IMG/VR virus record: IMGVR_UViG_3300032181_000338
Span: 1-20,300 of that record
DNA: 20,300 nt
Strand: one strand, 5' to 3'
Origin: a virus
Numbering within the stretch: the first letter of the stretch is position 1; each line of letters starts with the position of its first letter. A program made the position numbers and the translations under genes. Of this stretch, positions 1,613 to 20,238 are shown piece after piece. The notes under the pieces were generated by a model. The model ran no database searches, had not been told where the DNA came from, and saw nothing but the letters and a program-made list of their open reading frames with translations.

Positions 1613-1619
1613 TATTTAT
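1613..1619 (-). promoter_or_regulatory. Late-promoter-like box ATAAATA before the small coiled-coil gene
   Basis: ATAAATA on the minus strand, overlapping the TAA stop of the preceding oxygenase gene (1618-1616) and ending 28 bases before the ATG at 1585. The placement over an upstream stop codon matches the box at 1370-1376. Confidence 0.5.
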
Positions 1620-2119
1620 TTGAAATAATTGAAGTTGATAACGAATCTTCCTGTGGGATTTGTTGTGGTTGTTCCAGTGTGTTCAATGTTACTATCAAAA
1701 ATAACAATTCTATTTTCTACACTTTCCACGACCTCTCCAGTTTTAAACTTTGTGTATCCATCACATGTATTCAGATAGTAAACTGCGGTGGTGCAATCTG
1801 ACAAGTCTACATGGTATCCATGTTCTACAACTTTATCAACACAGGGATTCAAATTTGCTTTTACTCTTACTAAAGATTTTAATTTTAATTTTTCTCTAAA
1901 AATTTCTAAGTCTTTATAGTTTTCGCTAAATGGTTGATCAAAATGATAAAACAAATGAACGAATTGGTTTTGTGTTTCTTTGTATTCAAGTTCAATTACC
2001 TCACCAGTTTCAACATCCTTTAATGTAGGTCCATAAAACCAAGGAAAATATGCACCAGTGACAAGATTTTTTAAATATTGAAATTGATGATCAGGTAAAA
2101 AATTATCAATAATTTCCAT
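1616..2119 (-). CDS. 2OG-Fe(II) oxygenase, third of three in tandem
   Basis: A 167-residue protein with the C-terminal half of a 2-oxoglutarate/Fe(II)-dependent dioxygenase jelly-roll. The metal-binding H-x-D is at H103-x-D105 (GYHVD), followed by a TAVYYLNTCDG strand. The distal iron-ligand histidine is H147 (SNIEHTG), and the 2OG-anchoring arginine is R158 in GRFVINFNYF. All expected catalytic residues are present, so it should be active. Such enzymes couple decarboxylation of 2OG to hydroxylation of a protein, nucleic acid or small molecule; the substrate here is unknown. Its ATG overlaps the previous gene's stop by one base (TAATG), so the two are translationally coupled. The protein is clearly divergent from its two oxygenase neighbours, so this is not a recent tandem duplication. 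Confidence 0.82.
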   Translation of the reverse strand: MEIIDNFLPDHQFQYLKNLVTGAYFPWFYGPTLKDVETGEVIELEYKETQNQFVHLFYHFDQPFSENYKDLEIFREKLKLKSLVRVKANLNPCVDKVVEHGYHVDLSDCTTAVYYLNTCDGYTKFKTGEVVESVENRIVIFDSNIEHTGTTTTNPTGRFVINFNYFK

Positions 2120-2724
2120 TAACTAAATCTCCCTCCTTTAATCCAACCAACAAGAGAATACCTAGTTCCAGATGTAACTTCTGTAACTCTATGAGGAACT
2201 CTACTATCAAAAACAGTTAATAGACCTTGTTTCTTTTCAATAACCTGAATTTCCTTTGTATTCATTGGATTTTGGAATTCTAAAACGCCACCTTCATATT
2301 CATTAGGATCTGAAAGTTGAAATGTGAAAGAAAGCTTTCGTACAAACTCTCCTGCGTTGTTTTGCATTAACTCAAATGGATTCCTATCTTCATCCATATG
2401 CCAATCATAATAGTCTCCAACTCCATACTTGGTAAACTGTACCGTTTCATTGTCATATCCAATTAATTCATAACCAAAATATCTGCGGTTAATTTGAGAT
2501 ACATATGCTAATAGTACAGATGGTAACCAGTTACTTTCGTGTAACCATTTTACCATTGATGATCTAGCATCAAGATTATCATCATTTACTTTTGCATGTG
2601 CGTATTCAATAACTTTATCAGTTTCATCCAATGATTCCCAATCACGAATAGCATCACAAATTAATGGCGGCAATTCAGTTGATACAGAAAAGATAGTTGG
2701 GTTTACTGCTAGTTTGATATCCAT
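2119..2724 (-). CDS. 2OG-Fe(II) oxygenase, prolyl-4-hydroxylase/PKHD type, second of three
   Basis: A 201-residue protein with a complete prolyl-hydroxylase-like 2OG-Fe(II) domain. YGVGDYYDWHMDED carries the H109-x-D111 iron motif. It is followed by RKLSFTFQLSDP and the GGVLEF strand, then FDSRVPHRV with the distal ligand H178, and TSGTRYSLVGWI with the 2OG-binding R188. This order and spacing resemble PKHD/PiuC-type hydroxylases, though the protein is somewhat shorter than cellular members. The N-terminal 90 residues are helical and carry no other domain I recognise. It begins two bases after the stop of the upstream oxygenase and overlaps the downstream one by a base, so all three are made from one coupled mRNA. 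The family call is firm; the substrate (protein proline, other residue or small molecule) cannot be read from the sequence. Confidence 0.88.
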   Translation of the reverse strand: MDIKLAVNPTIFSVSTELPPLICDAIRDWESLDETDKVIEYAHAKVNDDNLDARSSMVKWLHESNWLPSVLLAYVSQINRRYFGYELIGYDNETVQFTKYGVGDYYDWHMDEDRNPFELMQNNAGEFVRKLSFTFQLSDPNEYEGGVLEFQNPMNTKEIQVIEKKQGLLTVFDSRVPHRVTEVTSGTRYSLVGWIKGGRFS

Positions 2725-2726
2725 AA

Positions 2727-3323
2727 TTAATTAACAAAATTAAGGTTGAAAGAAAGAGTTACTCTGAGTTTATCAGATTTTTGTCTGGGAACTTTGTGTT
2801 CTAAGAAAGATGGGAAAATTAGTAAATCTCCTTCTTCCGCTTTTACATATGATTGTCCTACCCAAGTTCCAGGTGTTCCGTCTGGACCACCCATAAAATC
2901 AGGAGCATTGGACAATGCTACTTGTCTAAAGGGATTAACAAATATAGTTGGAGAGTGTTCCTCTTTGTCATATGAAACATAATGAATACAAGAAAAATGC
3001 CCAGGAAGATGTTCGTGTATCTCCTGATGTTGATTTACCTTATAAGCGTTTAACCAAGCTTCTCTAACCATGGGATTACCAAAAATTCCCATTTTCATAG
3101 AAAAGTCCTTGAGTTCGTCAATGTAAAGAGGAATTATAGTTTTCCAATCAAAATTGTTCTCTTGATTAAAAGTTGTCCAAACATCAGCATCCCATGCATC
3201 AACAAATGTTGATGGGTTTTTTTCATACTCTGGGATAACATAATCTAAACATTCTTTTTTAATTCTTTCATGATTTTTTACTTTTACTAAGAATAATGTA
3301 GAAGGAAACAATTCAATAATCAT
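2727..3323 (-). CDS. Putative 2OG-Fe(II) oxygenase (TIGR02466/PF13759-like), first of three
   Basis: A 198-residue protein resembling the short phage and bacterial 2OG-Fe(II) oxygenases of the TIGR02466/PF13759 type. Seen directly: an N-terminal ELFPSTLF start; a central NAYKVNQHQEIHEHLPGHFS block followed by a CIHYVSY strand, with candidate iron ligands H103 and H105; then EEGDLLIFPSFLEHKVPR with the distal H176; and R187 in DKLRVTLSFNLNF as the 2OG-binding arginine. The first two ligands form H-x-H rather than the common H-x-D, and several nearby histidines (H99, H109) make the exact pair uncertain. The gene follows the unknown 88-residue gene after 8 bases and precedes the next oxygenase by 2 bases. 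Family membership is likely; the substrate is unknown. Confidence 0.8.
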   Translation of the reverse strand: MIIELFPSTLFLVKVKNHERIKKECLDYVIPEYEKNPSTFVDAWDADVWTTFNQENNFDWKTIIPLYIDELKDFSMKMGIFGNPMVREAWLNAYKVNQHQEIHEHLPGHFSCIHYVSYDKEEHSPTIFVNPFRQVALSNAPDFMGGPDGTPGTWVGQSYVKAEEGDLLIFPSFLEHKVPRQKSDKLRVTLSFNLNFVN

Positions 3324-3602: not shown

Positions 3603-4703
3603 TTACCTCACGAAAACGGAATAACCGCAGTCAATATATCCATCTGCCCACCCATTATTGTTGCAGTTGTTGTGAATAATAGATCCAGACTCTGGACTTG
3701 AAGTGAAATTATTACCGCATTGACCACTACTACAGTACATAGCGTTTGGTTCACAATATGCTTGAATATATGAAATGGAACCGTAATATCCCCATCCACT
3801 ATGTCCATGTCTGATACCCATGCCAGAATGAGTATGACCATAAGTGGTATTACCACTTCCAGCAGTAGTAGCAAATCTTGCATTTCCTCTAGAGCTACTA
3901 CCCCAGTATCCTGTGGAGTTGATAACTAAGTTATCATTAGCATTATTGTTTCCATTTACTGTACCATCAATAAAAGGATCACCACCTCTACTGTTTGGTC
4001 TTCTACTATTCCACGTTAGGTTTCCTGCGTAGTTAGCACCAGACTTTCTACCACCACTGCTTACAACTTTATTATCTCCACCAGAAGAAATATCATAGTA
4101 AGTCTGACCAGGGAAATTATTATTTTGATAAACGCCGTATCCTCTTAAATTATTAGCGTCATACCCATTGGTATTATGGAGAATAATTAGAAATTCTGTA
4201 ATCGGATGTTTATCCCAAGCTCTAGTTTTTACAGCATTTTGCCATGGAGCAGTAGAGGATTGACTTTGCTCGTTTGGAGATCCCCAGAATGTTGAATTAT
4301 CCCAGTGTGGACGACCTCCCAAAGAATTGTTAGCAGTGGATCCATTAATGTTCCAAAGAAGAACCCATCCACCACCATCAAATGTAGTATTAAAAGTACA
4401 GTATGCTTGGTATGTAGCACCAAGACCATCTTTCAACCAATAAACACCATCAATAGTTACACCAGCATCATCTCTTAAAGAAGTTACACTATCTGCTGCC
4501 GCTTCTGCGCTTGATCCATCAGCTCCTCCACCACCAGCAGCATTAGTCCAATTAGAACCATTATAAACTTCTACCAACTCGGAAGTGGTATTGTAAATCA
4601 TCATTCCAAGTTCTGCAGTGAGAGCATCTCTCTGCGACTCATTATAGTTTGGCAACTTAAGTCGCTCACTAATGTTAAGTCTTCCGACATTTAATTGGGA
4701 CAT
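3603..4703 (-). CDS. Tail adhesin with fibrinogen-related/intelectin-like lectin domain
   Basis: A 366-residue protein. Residues 1-60 form an attachment module (LNVGRLNISERLKLP, then MIYNTTSELVEVYNGSNW) like that in the neighbouring LamG protein. A Gly/Ala/Ser linker (about 56-72) follows. From about residue 80 the sequence reads DGVYWLKDG..YQAYCTFNTTFDGGGWVLLWNINGS, the signature of the fibrinogen-related (FReD) or intelectin (X-type lectin) fold; the protein ends IDCGYSVFVR, also typical. There are six cysteines (102, 317, 324, 329, 347, 359), five of them near the C-terminus. Residues 290-301 hold two HxH motifs (GHTHSG and RHGHSG), like those that bind iron in tips of T4-type long tail fibres. 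Probable role: binding a glycan or surface ligand on the host from the virion. It has its own late-promoter-like box and a Shine-Dalgarno. FReD versus intelectin subfamily is not resolved. Confidence 0.8.
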   Translation of the reverse strand: MSQLNVGRLNISERLKLPNYNESQRDALTAELGMMIYNTTSELVEVYNGSNWTNAAGGGGADGSSAEAAADSVTSLRDDAGVTIDGVYWLKDGLGATYQAYCTFNTTFDGGGWVLLWNINGSTANNSLGGRPHWDNSTFWGSPNEQSQSSTAPWQNAVKTRAWDKHPITEFLIILHNTNGYDANNLRGYGVYQNNNFPGQTYYDISSGGDNKVVSSGGRKSGANYAGNLTWNSRRPNSRGGDPFIDGTVNGNNNANDNLVINSTGYWGSSSRGNARFATTAGSGNTTYGHTHSGMGIRHGHSGWGYYGSISYIQAYCEPNAMYCSSGQCGNNFTSSPESGSIIHNNCNNNGWADGYIDCGYSVFVR

Positions 4704-4742: not shown

Positions 4743-5591
4743 TCAAATGCCATATTTAGACTTGGCATAATTATAATTCTGTTGGATCATTGTAGGTGTT
4801 AACGCAATACTATAAATTCTAAAGTAAGCATATCCACCTGGGCATGGATAGCTATTGAATGTAGTTTGATCACAATTTCTAGATGCTAGTTTTGGCCAAC
4901 ATGAAGTTTGGTTTGCTAATTTTCCTCCAGATGGGTATGTATAACTATCAGTTTGCTGTCCATTCTTGTAGAATTTTACATAATTTCCATCATAAGTTAA
5001 AACCAAATGATACCATTCGCCTACATTAATTTGGCAGTTAGCATCATCCCAGAACCAACCTTGATTATCGGCATATACTGCCCACCAAAGATCCGATGTT
5101 GTGGCAGTATTATTTCTTCTTGATAGTTCCCAGCAGTTTTCTTTGTTATAGATAATCGCATAATCGCTTGGTTGACCAGATGCTTTGTACATAATATCTA
5201 CAGAAACAAAGTCTGATCCTACAGTATTTCCATCAATAACAAATGCTTGATTGGTAGGAAACTCTTGATATGAAAATGCAGCTGCTCCATTAGTTGTTGT
5301 CTGGAGAGATCCTCCTCCATTTAAACCACTAGTTCCATAACCACTGATAGTTTCTGTACCATTTTGATTTAAATTCCAGTCAACATTGGCAACCAATCCA
5401 AGAGTAGAGAAAGTAGATTGCTCTTTCAATCCTTTCCATTTCAGTCCCGTGTTAACACGCAACTCCCTATCAGTTGTGTTATAATAAAGATAACCAGCTC
5501 CATTATAGTCTGGATCCTCAGGCAATGTAGGACACCCAGCAACATTGCTGGGATCTGTTCTACCAATTGATAATTCTGATGAAGATGCCAT
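4743..5591 (-). CDS. Tail adhesin with LamG/concanavalin-A-like lectin domain
   Basis: A 282-residue protein. Residues about 30-55 (GYLYYNTTDRELRVNTGLKW) form the same attachment module seen in the fibrinogen-like protein downstream and in the 1608-residue protein. Residues about 63-282 are a concanavalin-A-like jelly roll of the LamG type. The diagnostic hairpin is at 193-210 (WYHLVLTYDGNYVKFYKN), and the family-typical last strand is at 256-272 (YFRIYSIALTPTMIQQN), followed by a helix. LamG domains bind glycans or proteins; in a phage tail gene cluster this suggests host-surface recognition. The start is the ATG at 5591. No strong Shine-Dalgarno is seen, but an ATAAATA box lies 33 bases upstream inside the end of the giant gene. 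The stop is a TGA at 4745-4743. Confidence 0.85.
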   Translation of the reverse strand: MASSSELSIGRTDPSNVAGCPTLPEDPDYNGAGYLYYNTTDRELRVNTGLKWKGLKEQSTFSTLGLVANVDWNLNQNGTETISGYGTSGLNGGGSLQTTTNGAAAFSYQEFPTNQAFVIDGNTVGSDFVSVDIMYKASGQPSDYAIIYNKENCWELSRRNNTATTSDLWWAVYADNQGWFWDDANCQINVGEWYHLVLTYDGNYVKFYKNGQQTDSYTYPSGGKLANQTSCWPKLASRNCDQTTFNSYPCPGGYAYFRIYSIALTPTMIQQNYNYAKSKYGI

Positions 5592-15411: not shown

Positions 15412-18400
15412 TTACTTAATTTCCTGAACTAGTACGGTGAAGTTAATAATATCAGCAACTGCGTGATCATTAGTCAACGTCAGAGTAATTCTGGGTTCTG
15501 TAGAAGCAGTAAAATCAAATGTCGCAGTATATTGATCTGCAGAAGTATTTAATGACGCAAATTCATTGTGGAAAATATCAGTACCATTATCTATAACTGA
15601 ATACTCTGACATAGATCTCTTTCCAGAACTGGATTTAGAAACAACAGTTACCTTACATCCTTTAGATGTGCCACTTGGATATAGAACTACAGAAGAAGCT
15701 TCAAGTCCTCCTTTATCCAATACAAACGTAGAAGAACTAATCTTATAATCTGCTAATTCAAATTCTTTTAAATCGCCGTCAAAGATTTTAACTCCATTAA
15801 AGGATCCAGACCCAAATGTTGTGTTGAGATACACATCACCCTGGTTATCTAATCTAAGAACAGGATCTACATTCAATCCACTAGAAAGACCCAAATCTAG
15901 ATATTGTTTTGTGCTACTAATAAATGTGCTAGTAGAATCTGTATTATCAATTGTAGTGTCAACCGAATTGAAAGTAACAATCTCTGTATTAAGTGCTAAG
16001 GAATTACCACCACTAGTCGTAATATTGTCAATACCAGTAAAGTCTAGAGAGGTTTCAGACAATTGTAATGTATTTACATTATTATTGTAGAAATATAAAA
16101 TGTTTTCATTTGCTGCTGGAGCAGTTTCTGGTATAATATATGTGTTACCATCAACGTCTCTAACCCCACCAAGTGAAGACCAGTTTGATCCACTATATCC
16201 TTCAAATTGTTGGATTGTAGTATTGAAACGAATGGAACCAGGACCAGCAGCTGCAATAGATTTCTCATTGTCAGTACCAGCAGGAATTCTAAAATGAGTT
16301 ACAGAATCAACAATAGTTTGTTTTCCTGCATTTGGTCTTAGTACTAAATCTTGAACTTGTGTAGAAATTACATTGTCATCAAGTTTCAATTCTTGACCAA
16401 CAACTAGTGGGCAGTCTTTATTAGGACCAACTCTAAGTTCAGAAATTTCTTCAAATGTTAACGAATCAACGGCAATAGCGTTCCAAGTTAATTGAGCGGT
16501 TCCATTATTTTGAACACCACTGGTGTGTGTTGGTTCGCTACCAGAAGAAGCAGTTGTTCCATCACCTGTTACTTCATATAAGTTATTTTTGTATCTTACA
16601 TATTGTCCAGTAGTTACTGCGGTATTAGCTGTCCACTCTGTAAATGCTGGAAGACCTAATTTTCCAGAAGAAATTTTCTTAACACCTCTAAAGTCTAAGA
16701 ATTGTGGTGTTAATTTTAGAGTATTTACAGCATCATTATAAAACCATAGCGTATTATCATTTGCTCCTGCTGTAAGTTCCGCAAGAATATATGTATTGCC
16801 ATCAATATCTCTAACTCCACCAAGTGAAGACCAAGAAGTTGTGGTAGCATTATATCCTTCATACTGATTGTTATCAGTATTAAATCTGATAGCACCATTT
16901 TGTCTAGTTGCTGCTCCTGGACGCTCGGAAGTATTACCAACAGGTAAGACTAATGCTTGTGTGCCATTTACTTTAGCAATTCTACCTGCTACTGGATTTA
17001 AAACTAAGTCATTTCCAGTCGTAGTTTGAATCTCGTTATCTTCAATTAAAATCTTATCGCTTACATTCAGGAATGCAGTAGTTTTTACAAAACCAGATGT
17101 AGTAACATTTCCGCTAGTAGCAGCAACACTAACTGTAGAACCTACATTAAATGGAGCATTGACAGTTACTGCAGTTCCAGACATAGTTAATGATGTCTGT
17201 GAAGATATAGATGAAGCAACAATATTGGTTCCATTTAATTGAGGTGTCGTCACAGAAGCGGTAAACGTTGCATCAACGCCACTAACTGTAGAGGCAGAAG
17301 TAATACTTGTAGCAGAAAACTCTCCACTACTAATATCTGCCGATACAACATCAGATTGCTGTGTATTTAAGACGGATAATGCAAATCCAGAACCAAATAC
17401 CTTCGGATTATTAGCATCAATTGTTAATAAAGCTTCATTCCCAGGTTCACCACCTTGATCGGCAGTAAGTCTATCATAATAATATAAATTTGGAGTAGTA
17501 TCGGTTACCTTAATATTAATATTTGAACCGTCTGTTGTTACACCATCAGTAAACTCAGTTCCTTCAAAATTTAGTTCTGCTGCACCAGAAACAGATGGTG
17601 CAGTATCTAACGTAATAGTAGTTGCATCAACAACAGCAGCTACTTTTGTTCCAACAACTAATGCTCCACCACCTTGCCCAGAAGCACTTACAAGCATTCC
17701 AACTACGATTCCAGTAGTGCTAGTTAGAGTAACATTAGAAGACCCTACATCTAGTGTAGTTGTTAGAGGTCCTACACTACTAGTTCCCCACTTTCCTCCT
17801 GCAAATTTAGAGAAAGCAAATTCTTGAGAATCGTTAGAAGAATCTGATAGATCAAATGAATATGTGTTTCCAACATATAATGTTAGATCTGGAGTTATAG
17901 TAGCTCCAGAACCTGTATCAATGAATATTTTTGTTTCTAAATCAGTAAATGTGTTAATAGTGTAGGTTGGACCAGGATTGGAATCTTTTTCAAATACAGA
18001 TCCAGCAGCAAGACCAGTAGCTGTGCAAAGTAAAGAATTTACATTTCCACCAATAGATCTAATTTCAATAATTTCTGTACTTGACCCTTGTGCTACTCCA
18101 CTCTCAACTAAAATATCTCCTACAGCAAACGTGCTTGAAGATACAGTTGTTGTTAATGTAAACTCTACAACATCTCTTCTAGTTACTGTATATGAAATGG
18201 GTTGAGTTAAATCAAATGGACTTACTGTCAGAGAGTCTCCAGCAACATAACCATTACCAGGACTATTAATAGTAAGAGATTCTACAGAACCAATTTTTGC
18301 AATGGTATATTGTAATGGAGTTGATGGTGAACCATATGCAGGACTAAACGATAGCGTTGCAGATCCAGCAGTCGTTGGTGTATTTGATAATGTAATTACA

Positions 18401-20238
18401 TTTCCAGTAATTGTGCTTACAGTAGTATTAGCAGCAACAACGCCAGGTCCAGACGTTACAGTAACAATGTCTCCAGCAGTAATACCTGCAGCACTTGCCA
18501 CAGTAATATCAAATAAATTTGGTGAAGAGAATGATAAACTAGCAGATCCAGCAGTTCCTGGTGTAGCAGATAACGTTAGTTGAGTTGCACTGTCAACAGA
18601 TTGTACTGTTGTACTTGGTTGTACAATTCCAATATCTGATTGTCCATTAAAGACATTCATTCCTACAATAATACCTGTTGTACTAGCAACAGTAATTTGA
18701 GCACTGCTTGTGCTTAAAGTTGTGGATACATTATTTTTTTGACCAGGAAGAGTAGTTGCAACTCCTGTAACACCAGCTGATAAAGATAATACATCTCCTG
18801 CAGTATAACCAGATCCTTTACTATCAAAAGAATTAATTTCTGTTAGTACACCAGGATTGCTGTTTACCGTGTAAGTAAATCCAGCTCCACCGCCTCCACC
18901 TAAATCAGAATCATTTGCTGATAGTACATCTGTATTAACATATCCAGAACCAATACTTGTGAAAGTTATAGAACTAACAACTCCATTGAAAGCAGTTGTT
19001 GTTAGAGTAAACGTAGCTCCAGATCCTGTTCCTCCTACATCAACAGCGTTAAATGTTACAATATCTCCAGTTGCATAATCATCTGCAGTCGTAAACACGA
19101 CTGCTGTAACTGCTCCGCCAGATACGGTTACATCTGCTGTTCCACCTGTACCCTCATGTACTGTTGTTCCAGACTGAATGGTGACAGCTGCACCCATATT
19201 ATTATGAACTTCACAGTCATAATTTACAGTTGTGGTTGTAGATGATCCCTTAACTACAACGTAGTAAAAAGCACCTGCAGTACCAGGAGTTCCTACTCTA
19301 ACTCCAGTAACACCAGGGGCGTCTGCTGGATTTAAGTCTCCTCCAAACTGAGTTTCAAATCTAAATGGATGTCCAACATTAGATGCATCAGATATGTCAA
19401 ATCTGTATGTATTTCCAGTGTCTAAAGTTAATGTTGGTTGAGTATTACCATCAATTACATATTGAAAAGGACCTGAACCAGTTACAGTTACAACAAATGT
19501 TTGTACTGGTTGGTTGTATGTGGATACACCTTGATATGTTCCATCAGTATATCCAGAACCACCAACTATTGTTCCATTAAATCCTGTTGTACCAGTTACT
19601 GTAATATCAGCAACAGCATTAGATCCACTTCCTCCAGTGATTGGTACACCAGTGTAACTTCCTGGCACATATCCAGAACCACCAACCAGAGCACCAACAA
19701 TTCCAGGTACAGTAAATGTAATTAATGCTCCAGATCCAGTTCCTCCATTTAACGGAATAGAACTATAGGATCCTGGATTATAGCCAGCACCACTTTGTGT
19801 AATTGAACCTTCATATTCTGCAATTATAAAATCTGCAGATGCGTCATCACCAGTTCCTCCAGTGAGTGAAACATTTTCATATGTCCCTGGATCATAGTTA
19901 GATCCAGTATCTAGAATAGAAATTCCACCTGCGTATAAAATTCTTTGTCTTACATTAATATTTTTGTAGAATACAACATCTGTTGGTTGTAAATCAACAA
20001 TTTTTTTATTAGATGAAACAAATCCTAAAGTTCCAGCACTAGGTTTGTATATACCAACAGAAGCATCTGATGTAAATGATAAAGATGGAGAAGTAACTGT
20101 TCCATTGCCAAGTTTTAAATTTCCTGTAGAAAGATCACTTCCTCCCTGAGAAATATTAAAAATTTGGTCACCAATTTGATTAATTTTCTGCCTTTGAAGT
20201 TCAAAGGTATCAGTTCTAGCGACTTGAATTGCTGGCAT
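15412..20238 (-). CDS. Baseplate/fibre-type structural protein (1608 residues) with cupredoxin-like domain
   Basis: The N-terminus (ARTDTFELQRQKINQIGDQIF) resembles the KIN..F..IY..GD start of T4 gp9/gp10-type baseplate proteins, so this end may dock on the baseplate. Then follow four GSGYxxGxY repeats (about 108-240) and a cupredoxin-like domain (about 244-356) with H290 and C342-x2-H345-x2-M348. More GSGY units lie near 430, 476 and 662. Three copies of a V.STTGI.VGM repeat are at 512-570, 575-632 and 833-892. A second cupredoxin-like domain (764-942) is interrupted by the third of these and lacks the copper ligands. Fibre repeats (971-1075) are followed by two copies of a 105-residue module (about 1080-1185 and 1298-1402) around a Trp-containing module (1200-1256), and a beta C-terminus ends LVQEIK. 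A role in the peripheral baseplate or fibre is inferred. The ATG is at 20238 with purine-rich AGAGAG upstream. Confidence 0.85.
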   Translation of the reverse strand: MPAIQVARTDTFELQRQKINQIGDQIFNISQGGSDLSTGNLKLGNGTVTSPSLSFTSDASVGIYKPSAGTLGFVSSNKKIVDLQPTDVVFYKNINVRQRILYAGGISILDTGSNYDPGTYENVSLTGGTGDDASADFIIAEYEGSITQSGAGYNPGSYSSIPLNGGTGSGALITFTVPGIVGALVGGSGYVPGSYTGVPITGGSGSNAVADITVTGTTGFNGTIVGGSGYTDGTYQGVSTYNQPVQTFVVTVTGSGPFQYVIDGNTQPTLTLDTGNTYRFDISDASNVGHPFRFETQFGGDLNPADAPGVTGVRVGTPGTAGAFYYVVVKGSSTTTTVNYDCEVHNNMGAAVTIQSGTTVHEGTGGTADVTVSGGAVTAVVFTTADDYATGDIVTFNAVDVGGTGSGATFTLTTTAFNGVVSSITFTSIGSGYVNTDVLSANDSDLGGGGGAGFTYTVNSNPGVLTEINSFDSKGSGYTAGDVLSLSAGVTGVATTLPGQKNNVSTTLSTSSAQITVASTTGIIVGMNVFNGQSDIGIVQPSTTVQSVDSATQLTLSATPGTAGSASLSFSSPNLFDITVASAAGITAGDIVTVTSGPGVVAANTTVSTITGNVITLSNTPTTAGSATLSFSPAYGSPSTPLQYTIAKIGSVESLTINSPGNGYVAGDSLTVSPFDLTQPISYTVTRRDVVEFTLTTTVSSSTFAVGDILVESGVAQGSSTEIIEIRSIGGNVNSLLCTATGLAAGSVFEKDSNPGPTYTINTFTDLETKIFIDTGSGATITPDLTLYVGNTYSFDLSDSSNDSQEFAFSKFAGGKWGTSSVGPLTTTLDVGSSNVTLTSTTGIVVGMLVSASGQGGGALVVGTKVAAVVDATTITLDTAPSVSGAAELNFEGTEFTDGVTTDGSNINIKVTDTTPNLYYYDRLTADQGGEPGNEALLTIDANNPKVFGSGFALSVLNTQQSDVVSADISSGEFSATSITSASTVSGVDATFTASVTTPQLNGTNIVASSISSQTSLTMSGTAVTVNAPFNVGSTVSVAATSGNVTTSGFVKTTAFLNVSDKILIEDNEIQTTTGNDLVLNPVAGRIAKVNGTQALVLPVGNTSERPGAATRQNGAIRFNTDNNQYEGYNATTTSWSSLGGVRDIDGNTYILAELTAGANDNTLWFYNDAVNTLKLTPQFLDFRGVKKISSGKLGLPAFTEWTANTAVTTGQYVRYKNNLYEVTGDGTTASSGSEPTHTSGVQNNGTAQLTWNAIAVDSLTFEEISELRVGPNKDCPLVVGQELKLDDNVISTQVQDLVLRPNAGKQTIVDSVTHFRIPAGTDNEKSIAAAGPGSIRFNTTIQQFEGYSGSNWSSLGGVRDVDGNTYIIPETAPAANENILYFYNNNVNTLQLSETSLDFTGIDNITTSGGNSLALNTEIVTFNSVDTTIDNTDSTSTFISSTKQYLDLGLSSGLNVDPVLRLDNQGDVYLNTTFGSGSFNGVKIFDGDLKEFELADYKISSSTFVLDKGGLEASSVVLYPSGTSKGCKVTVVSKSSSGKRSMSEYSVIDNGTDIFHNEFASLNTSADQYTATFDFTASTEPRITLTLTNDHAVADIINFTVLVQEIK
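16015..16347 (-). repeat. Fibre module copy 2 in the 1608-residue protein (residues 1298-1408)
   Basis: Copy of the module at 16669-17001. Shared landmarks: a GxIRFNT..Q.EGY strand pair, a SSLGGVRD.DGNTYI core, and N..L.FYN..VNTL.L..LDF at the end. The copies are about 218 residues apart and separated by a Trp-containing module. Confidence 0.8.
16669..17001 (-). repeat. Fibre module copy 1 in the 1608-residue protein (residues 1080-1190)
   Basis: The first copy, with NGAIRFNTDNNQYEGYN, then SWSSLGGVRDIDGNTYI, then LWFYNDAVNTLKL. The RFNT...W part is also seen as the N-terminal module of both downstream adhesin genes. Confidence 0.8.
17563..17742 (-). repeat. VGM repeat copy 3 (residues 833-892), inserted in a cupredoxin-like domain
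   Basis: About 60 residues with TSTTGIVVGMLV, GTKVAAVVDATTITL and SGAAELNFEG. It matches copies 1 and 2 but splits the second cupredoxin-like domain after its FAF strand. Confidence 0.65.
18343..18516 (-). repeat. VGM repeat copy 2 (residues 575-632)
   Basis: Pattern ITVASAAGITAGDIVTV, then ANTTVSTITGNVITLS, then TAGSATLSF. Directly follows copy 1. Confidence 0.7.
18529..18705 (-). repeat. VGM repeat copy 1 (residues 512-570)
   Basis: Pattern ITVASTTGIIVGMNV, then PSTTVQSVDSATQLTLS, then TAGSASLSF. An Ig-like beta unit is the likely fold. Confidence 0.7.
19515..19925 (-). repeat. Four tandem GSGYxxGxY repeats (residues about 108-240)
   Basis: The core tyrosines fall at residues 115, 153, 190 and 230, a period of 37-40 residues. 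Each unit reads roughly G-S-G-Y-x-x-G-x-Y followed by GG-T/S-G-S and an alternating strand. The first unit is the most diverged (GSNYDPGTY). Confidence 0.85.

Follow-up and report, generated by a model that had tools for sequence, protein, structure and literature searches.

The question raised by this locus is whether a very long virion structural protein carries a genuine type-1 copper site and, if so, what such a site would contribute to a virus particle. The window (the whole 20,300-nucleotide stretch of the IMG/VR record that was analysed) encodes, in order, a large structural protein, a small ORF, the 1608-residue protein in question, a 166-residue protein, and a long tail-fibre protein. 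This gene order is matched over the extent of the 20.3-kb stretch in the Kyanoviridae (e.g., S-CAM4, ACG-2014h, and S-H9-1), in which a virion structural protein is annotated at the position equivalent to that of the 1608-residue protein. Residues 709 to 1608 of the latter match PHROG 6005 ("virion structural protein"; E = 0), and residues 254 to 623 match PHROG 32294 ("baseplate wedge subunit"; E = 2.6e-81). Elsewhere in the window, three adjoining 2OG-Fe(II) oxygenase-like genes are located at 1616-3323 (minus strand), two of which score above the Pfam cut-off, the third (1616-2119) falling below it and bearing the PHROGs label DNA endonuclease V, which looks like a mislabel. A 282-residue protein (4743-5591, minus strand) harbors a Laminin_G_3/concanavalin-like lectin domain and is likely a host-surface binding part, and a 366-residue protein (3603-4703, minus strand; PHROG 1325, function unknown) contains a stretch resembling fibrinogen-C/intelectin by eye (YQAYCTFNTTFDGGGWVLLWNING), a Pfam search of this protein returning no match. 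The features discussed below are listed in Table 1.

Table 1. Positions in the window of the virion protein, its two cupredoxin-like domain copies, and the proposed ligands
Feature	Position	Strand	Basis or remark
1608-residue virion structural protein carrying the cupredoxin domain	15412..20238	minus	ORF; PHROG 6005 and PHROG 32294 matches
Cupredoxin domain copy 1, residues 244-356, ligand-complete	19171..19509	minus	AF2, Foldseek, hhalign
H290, proposed first His copper ligand, GHPF motif	19369..19371	minus	Invariant in 63/63 rows of the copy-1-family alignment
C342, proposed Cys copper ligand	19213..19215	minus	Invariant in 63/63 rows of the copy-1-family alignment
H345, proposed second His copper ligand	19204..19206	minus	Invariant in 63/63 rows of the copy-1-family alignment
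M348, proposed axial Met ligand	19195..19197	minus	61/63 rows; the other two are C-x2-H-x3-M loop variants
Second domain copy, residues ~754-951, split by an insert, ligands lost	17386..17979	minus	Q805 in place of the first His, D922 in place of Cys
Module of ~65-70 residues inside copy 2, residues ~825-893	17560..17766	minus	Recurs in kind at residues ~505-625

The original prediction read a blue-copper fold into residues 244 to 356 of this protein, with H290, C342, H345, and M348 as an amicyanin-like ligand set, and translation of the ORF yields each of these residues at the position named, with the predicted C-x2-H-x2-M spacing. The protein contains just four Cys, seven His (residues 290, 345, 361, 1238, 1315, 1557, and 1592), and six Met residues; the four proposed ligands are, the start Met aside, the sole Cys, His, or Met residues within residues 1 to 360, and CEVHNNM is its sole C-x2-H-x2-M motif. 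Such a motif accompanied by an upstream His was obtained in 3 of 100,000 shuffles of the 1608-residue protein, which, as confirmed by the homologues described below, argues against a chance pattern.

The predicted structure agrees with the proposed fold. The AlphaFold2 model of copy 1, for which an alignment of 63 homologous rows served as input (as it did for the hhalign profile comparisons), is a beta-sandwich of nine strands (model residues 7-13, 21-23, 31-34, 37-42, 53-57, 71-76, 85-90, 97-103, and 111-116) with a pLDDT of 90.2 and a pTM of 0.84. In this model, the first His (model residue 51, H290) directly precedes a strand, the Cys (model residue 103, C342) terminates the penultimate strand, and the loop which follows it contains the second His (model residue 106, H345) and the Met (model residue 109, M348). 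The ligands of plastocyanin are placed equivalently relative to its strands. When the model was compared with the PDB (350,542 chains) using Foldseek, the best 23 matches were all copper proteins of the cupredoxin superfamily, among them Cu-nitrite reductase (2dv6; E = 5e-4), rusticyanin (TM, 0.51), laccases, and other multicopper oxidases, followed at rank 24 by coagulation factor Va (cupredoxin fold superfamily) and, lower down, by pseudoazurin and plastocyanin. Because the E values are modest (best, 5e-4) and the TM scores are approximately 0.5, with 7 to 19% identity among the matches listed, copy 1 would represent a divergent branch of the cupredoxins. Although Cu-nitrite reductase, rusticyanin, and multicopper oxidase domains are the best fold matches, and the His-Pro context of the first His is shared in the alignment with a copper oxidase, copy 1 possesses neither the trinuclear nor the type-2 site of the nitrite reductases and multicopper oxidases.

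At the level of sequence, searches of copy 1 against Pfam, NCBIfam, and the PDB returned no significant match, the gathering cut-off of PF00127 not being reached; the weak PDB profile matches were in part blue-copper and in part antibody-like proteins. The PF00127 family was reached from copy 1 only via an intermediate relative, a Bacteroidetes domain retrieved by a PF00127 genome search, which scores 32.4 bits against PF00127 (cut-off, 21.2), shares 41% identity with the gp9 domain of cyanophage S-RIM4 (E = 4e-13), and aligns to the 63-row copy-1 profile at 97.4% with the H, C, H, and M ligands all in register. Comparison of this profile by hhalign with eight cellular PF00127 proteins (including Prochlorococcus plastocyanins, SAR86, and others) gave 89% (E = 2.3e-6), the two His residues and the Cys being in register, while a control comparison of another module of the same phage protein with the plastocyanin profile gave 0.2%. 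Copy 1 shares with PF00127 (plastocyanin, pseudoazurin) the sandwich, the G-x-T-x-x-F strand, and the order His ... Y-x-C-x2-H ... M; however, the first His of plastocyanins is followed by Asn, whereas that of copy 1 is followed by Pro, the middle region of copy 1 is longer, and plastocyanin is a soluble carrier whereas copy 1 is part of a very long virion protein. Amicyanin (TIGR02657) has the same C-x2-H-x2-M loop spacing as the CEVHNNM of copy 1, although the methylamine dehydrogenase context of amicyanin is absent from the phage domain and the TIGR02657 model does not match copy 1 (best of 17 family members, E = 0.069). It is thus almost certain that residues 244 to 356 constitute a genuine cupredoxin homologue.

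Ligand conservation was assessed on loci gathered without the use of ligand residues. The DNA pattern for GNTYRFDxSD, which contains no ligand residue, occurs in IMG/VR at 122 or more places in at least 120 contigs (not dereplicated), and all four ligands are present at 109 of the 122 places listed; the remaining 13 comprise six places cut by contig ends, three loop variants (C-x4-H-x2-M and C-x2-H-x3-M), three second-copy types which carry an inserted module, and one in which all ligands are lost. Since this pattern is biased toward canonical members, two further retrieval routes were employed. When orthologues of the 1608-residue protein were fetched by their far C-terminal segment and their domains located by a profile with masked ligand columns, 32 copy-1 domains possessed the complete HCHM set, and the few that did not had lost the whole set. 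When gp9 proteins were fetched by their N terminus and the C-terminal domain was then inspected, none of the 74 complete proteins (64 distinct tails) lacked any of the four ligands. Queries were ligand-free DNA patterns or other parts of the proteins because a more diverse alignment of the domain offered no conserved stretches from which to search. Invariant columns of the 63-row alignment are Y, F, H290, Y, C342, and H345. At the Cys and at each His ligand, the two synonymous codons are both in use (TGT 87 and TGC 28 for Cys; CAT 82 and CAC 33, and CAT 69 and CAC 44, for the two His residues), and the invariance is therefore attributable to selection on the residues themselves. The C-x2-H-x2-M spacing is present in 219 of 226 domains, and the ligands are kept despite changes in loop length (x2, x3, x4, and x6), as exemplified by C-x2-H-x4-M in Sf-CH1b and C-x2-H-x3-M in P-HM1 gp7; known type-1 sites likewise vary in ligand-loop length. 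Across the homologous sequences, the full His/Cys-x2-His-x2-Met set is thereby shown to be under strong purifying selection. Free variation of Cys342 and His345, which had been named as grounds for abandoning the prediction, is not observed in copy 1, and site losses mostly involve the whole set.

A further copy of the domain, devoid of ligands and missed by the original prediction, occupies residues ~754-951 of the same protein; it was found by an own-genome match (E = 7.6e-7) and aligns to the copy-1 family by hhalign at 99.6%. In the source phage and its close kin, all ligands of copy 2 are lost (SQEF; YYYDRLTADQGG), and its AF2 model nevertheless attains a pLDDT of 91.9; a Foldseek search with copy 2 returned no significant match, the probable reason being the inserted module, which is not plastocyanin-like (hhalign, 0.2%). 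Copy 2 and its insert represent one domain nested in another. The suggestion that the fold might be a retired one holds for copy 2 and fails for copy 1. In copy 2 across 56 orthologues of the protein, the first His is present in 35 of the 35 in which the Cys is present and absent from 17 of the 21 in which the Cys is absent, although the two sites are approximately 115 residues apart with the inserted module between them. This coupling gives a Fisher value of 6e-11 if kinship is ignored; on the tree, six independent pairs on supported branches are on average concordant in 5.0 of 6 instances, with none opposite (sign test, p ~0.06). Coupled loss of the Cys and a distant His argues for a single four-residue metal site, and it is very probable that H290, C342, H345, and M348 form one such site in copy 1. 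In copy 2 of six further loci and of S-CAM4, the axial Met is replaced by Glu and the Cys-His loop is longer (e.g., CSSGIGHENEGG and CANPDESHAGEGG); in these variants the metal site may have been altered and not abolished.

Of 57 orthologues of the 1608-residue protein, 49 possess one or more complete sites and the other 8, from several lineages, possess none; the site is therefore dispensable for this protein. A requirement for one complete site or more per protein was tested on a tree. Complete sites in the two copies tend to replace each other (inverse association, Fisher p = 0.008), but the association loses significance when relatedness is taken into account, and the requirement is thus only a hint.

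A blue-copper domain in a phage tail or baseplate had been expected to be unusual; instead, the domain proved to be widespread in cyanophages. With copy 1 as the query, 50 phage records were matched, a consensus query matched 302 places in 227 records, and a gp9-type query matched 334 records (in 330 of them along 80% or more of the domain length), many of these records being near-identical isolates. Most of the listed gp9-type matches are annotated "baseplate wedge tail fiber connector." Cyanophage gp9 (PHROG 677) is a different protein from the 1608-residue protein, but its C terminus is a ligand-complete domain of the copy 1 type, and its annotation makes no mention of copper. The domain, which has no Pfam family of its own, is found in PHROGs 30742, 677, 27200, 32294, 693, 6005, 708, and 9158, in tail fibres, baseplate proteins, and the gp9 tail-fibre connector, across more than 300 cyanophage records, and in phages of Synechococcus, Prochlorococcus, Pelagibacter, and Methylophilales; a plasmid search for it returned no match. 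Fold matches in BFVD include P-SSM2 fibre proteins as well as small pithovirus and marseillevirus beta-sandwich proteins (A0A481Z7Q7, A0A481Z6J5, and A0A481YXP1). As judged from this distribution of sequences, the cupredoxin domain is shown to recur in many tail and baseplate proteins, notably as the C-terminal domain of gp9, and would have become a mobile building block of marine phage tail, fibre, and baseplate proteins; its recurrence in cyanophage tail proteins suggests that virus particles may carry copper. Four relatives, from MGII archaea, SAR86, and a further gammaproteobacterium, possess signal-peptide and lipobox-like starts and look like candidate uncharacterised marine cupredoxin lipoproteins, presumably exported; the exported or envelope side is the usual compartment of cupredoxins. 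Other relatives occur in marine bacteria and MGII archaea, several of these "cellular" contigs possibly being phage. A stand-alone, ligand-less version of 112 residues, P-SS2 gp080 (ORF 080; 1992-2330 of locus L397), adjoins tail tape measure genes and was detected with nine peptides by virion mass spectrometry of purified particles (PMC2784084), which establishes for one relative that a domain of this kind is part of the virion. This virion-detected relative is also a counterpoint, having itself lost the ligands. A literature search confined to open-licence PMC papers yielded no relevant account of a cupredoxin or blue-copper domain from a phage tail, and the ligand-complete blue-copper module of marine phage tails is apparently undescribed.

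The best explanation overall, which we regard as moderately probable, is that a copper-binding cupredoxin serves as an outward-facing attachment module of the tail, fibre, or baseplate. In the proposed mechanism, the four ligands would coordinate a single copper ion, forming a mononuclear type-1 site. The protein would be made copper-free in the host cytoplasm, which is kept copper-poor, and would acquire copper on release, from the envelope or from seawater; such loading after lysis is plausible because type-1 sites bind copper very tightly. Copper would then lock the ligand loop of the outward-facing beta-sandwich, and the locked loop may stabilise an attachment surface or a fibre joint and possibly contribute to docking. 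Since a fold is predicted even for copies devoid of ligands, formation of the sandwich probably does not depend on the metal; as ligand-complete copies dominate at the fibre connector, the metal probably serves that site by locking the loop and the attachment surface. This attachment-lock step is drawn from position only.

That the metal at a copy 1-type site in the virion is copper is predicted to be probable, and a competing view is that another metal (Zn, Ni, Co, or Fe), or Cu(I) only, acts as a purely structural staple of the sandwich. The ligand set itself is not copper-specific, since Cys/His2/Met sets are likewise able to coordinate Zn, Ni, Co, or Cu(I). However, the arrangement of the ligands, the fold, and the relatives are all of the copper-protein type, and the confidently predicted fold of ligand-less copy 2 implies that a staple is not needed for folding, which renders this view unlikely. 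It does accord with the use of metal staples by phage fibres, for which Fe in HxH sites of T4 gp37 is cited (PMC11705849). The gp37-type site resembles that proposed here in placing a metal in a tail-fibre protein (PMC11705849), yet it is a His-only site of a fibre trimer, whereas that of copy 1 is formed within one domain and includes Cys and Met; the HxH motif is not present in the 1608-residue protein, all seven His positions having been checked. Even less probable, at the far end of the range, is a retired cupredoxin acting as a beta-sandwich spacer only, with ligands surviving by inertia: this holds for copy 2 and P-SS2 gp080, but in copy 1 and gp9 the four ligands have all persisted through deep divergence while their codons changed synonymously, and the losses of Cys and the first His in copy 2 are coupled.

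With regard to function, type-1 sites are built for electron transfer, and a redox or copper sensor or electron carrier, in which Cu(I)/Cu(II) cycling at the host surface triggers or tunes infection or exchanges electrons with envelope proteins, might be envisaged. Its appeal is increased by the photosynthetic nature of the hosts and by the soluble plastocyanin which many cyanophages encode (PMC3037559). Yet relatives are found in phages of Pelagibacter and Methylophilales, hosts which are not photosynthetic, so photosynthesis is not the common factor and a role specific to it is disfavoured; furthermore, the site has been lost in whole lineages. We know of no electron donor or acceptor for these virion parts, nor of any partner able to reach a baseplate domain. 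For these reasons an attachment role is preferred to electron transfer; the sensor or carrier reading is rather improbable, and a structural or attachment role for the site rather than a redox one is predicted tentatively, at a little under even chances. A type-1 site buries its metal and no receptor is known, which speaks against the copper-loaded domain acting as bait for the proteins with which the host takes up copper or metals, as a "Ferrojan horse" for copper. That idea, which we consider quite improbable, draws on the likely outward location of the domain on fibres and fibre connectors and on an analogous iron proposal for phage tails (PMC11705849).

On a more far-reaching reading, nearly all marine T4-like cyanophages might carry several type-1 copper centres at the baseplate-fibre joint, loaded from the environment after lysis, so that copper occupancy or redox state would act as a fibre-lock or attachment switch and tie infection to ocean copper chemistry, a scenario which we regard as speculative and rather unlikely. 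Blue-copper domains are textbook electron carriers, and here a ligand-complete version occurs as a conserved structural module of virus particles, giving eight PHROG families, together with hundreds of domains that lack annotation, a lead to function. If copper is truly bound, it would follow that very abundant marine viruses bind copper and that T4-like cyanophages have a testable metal switch in their fibre connector.
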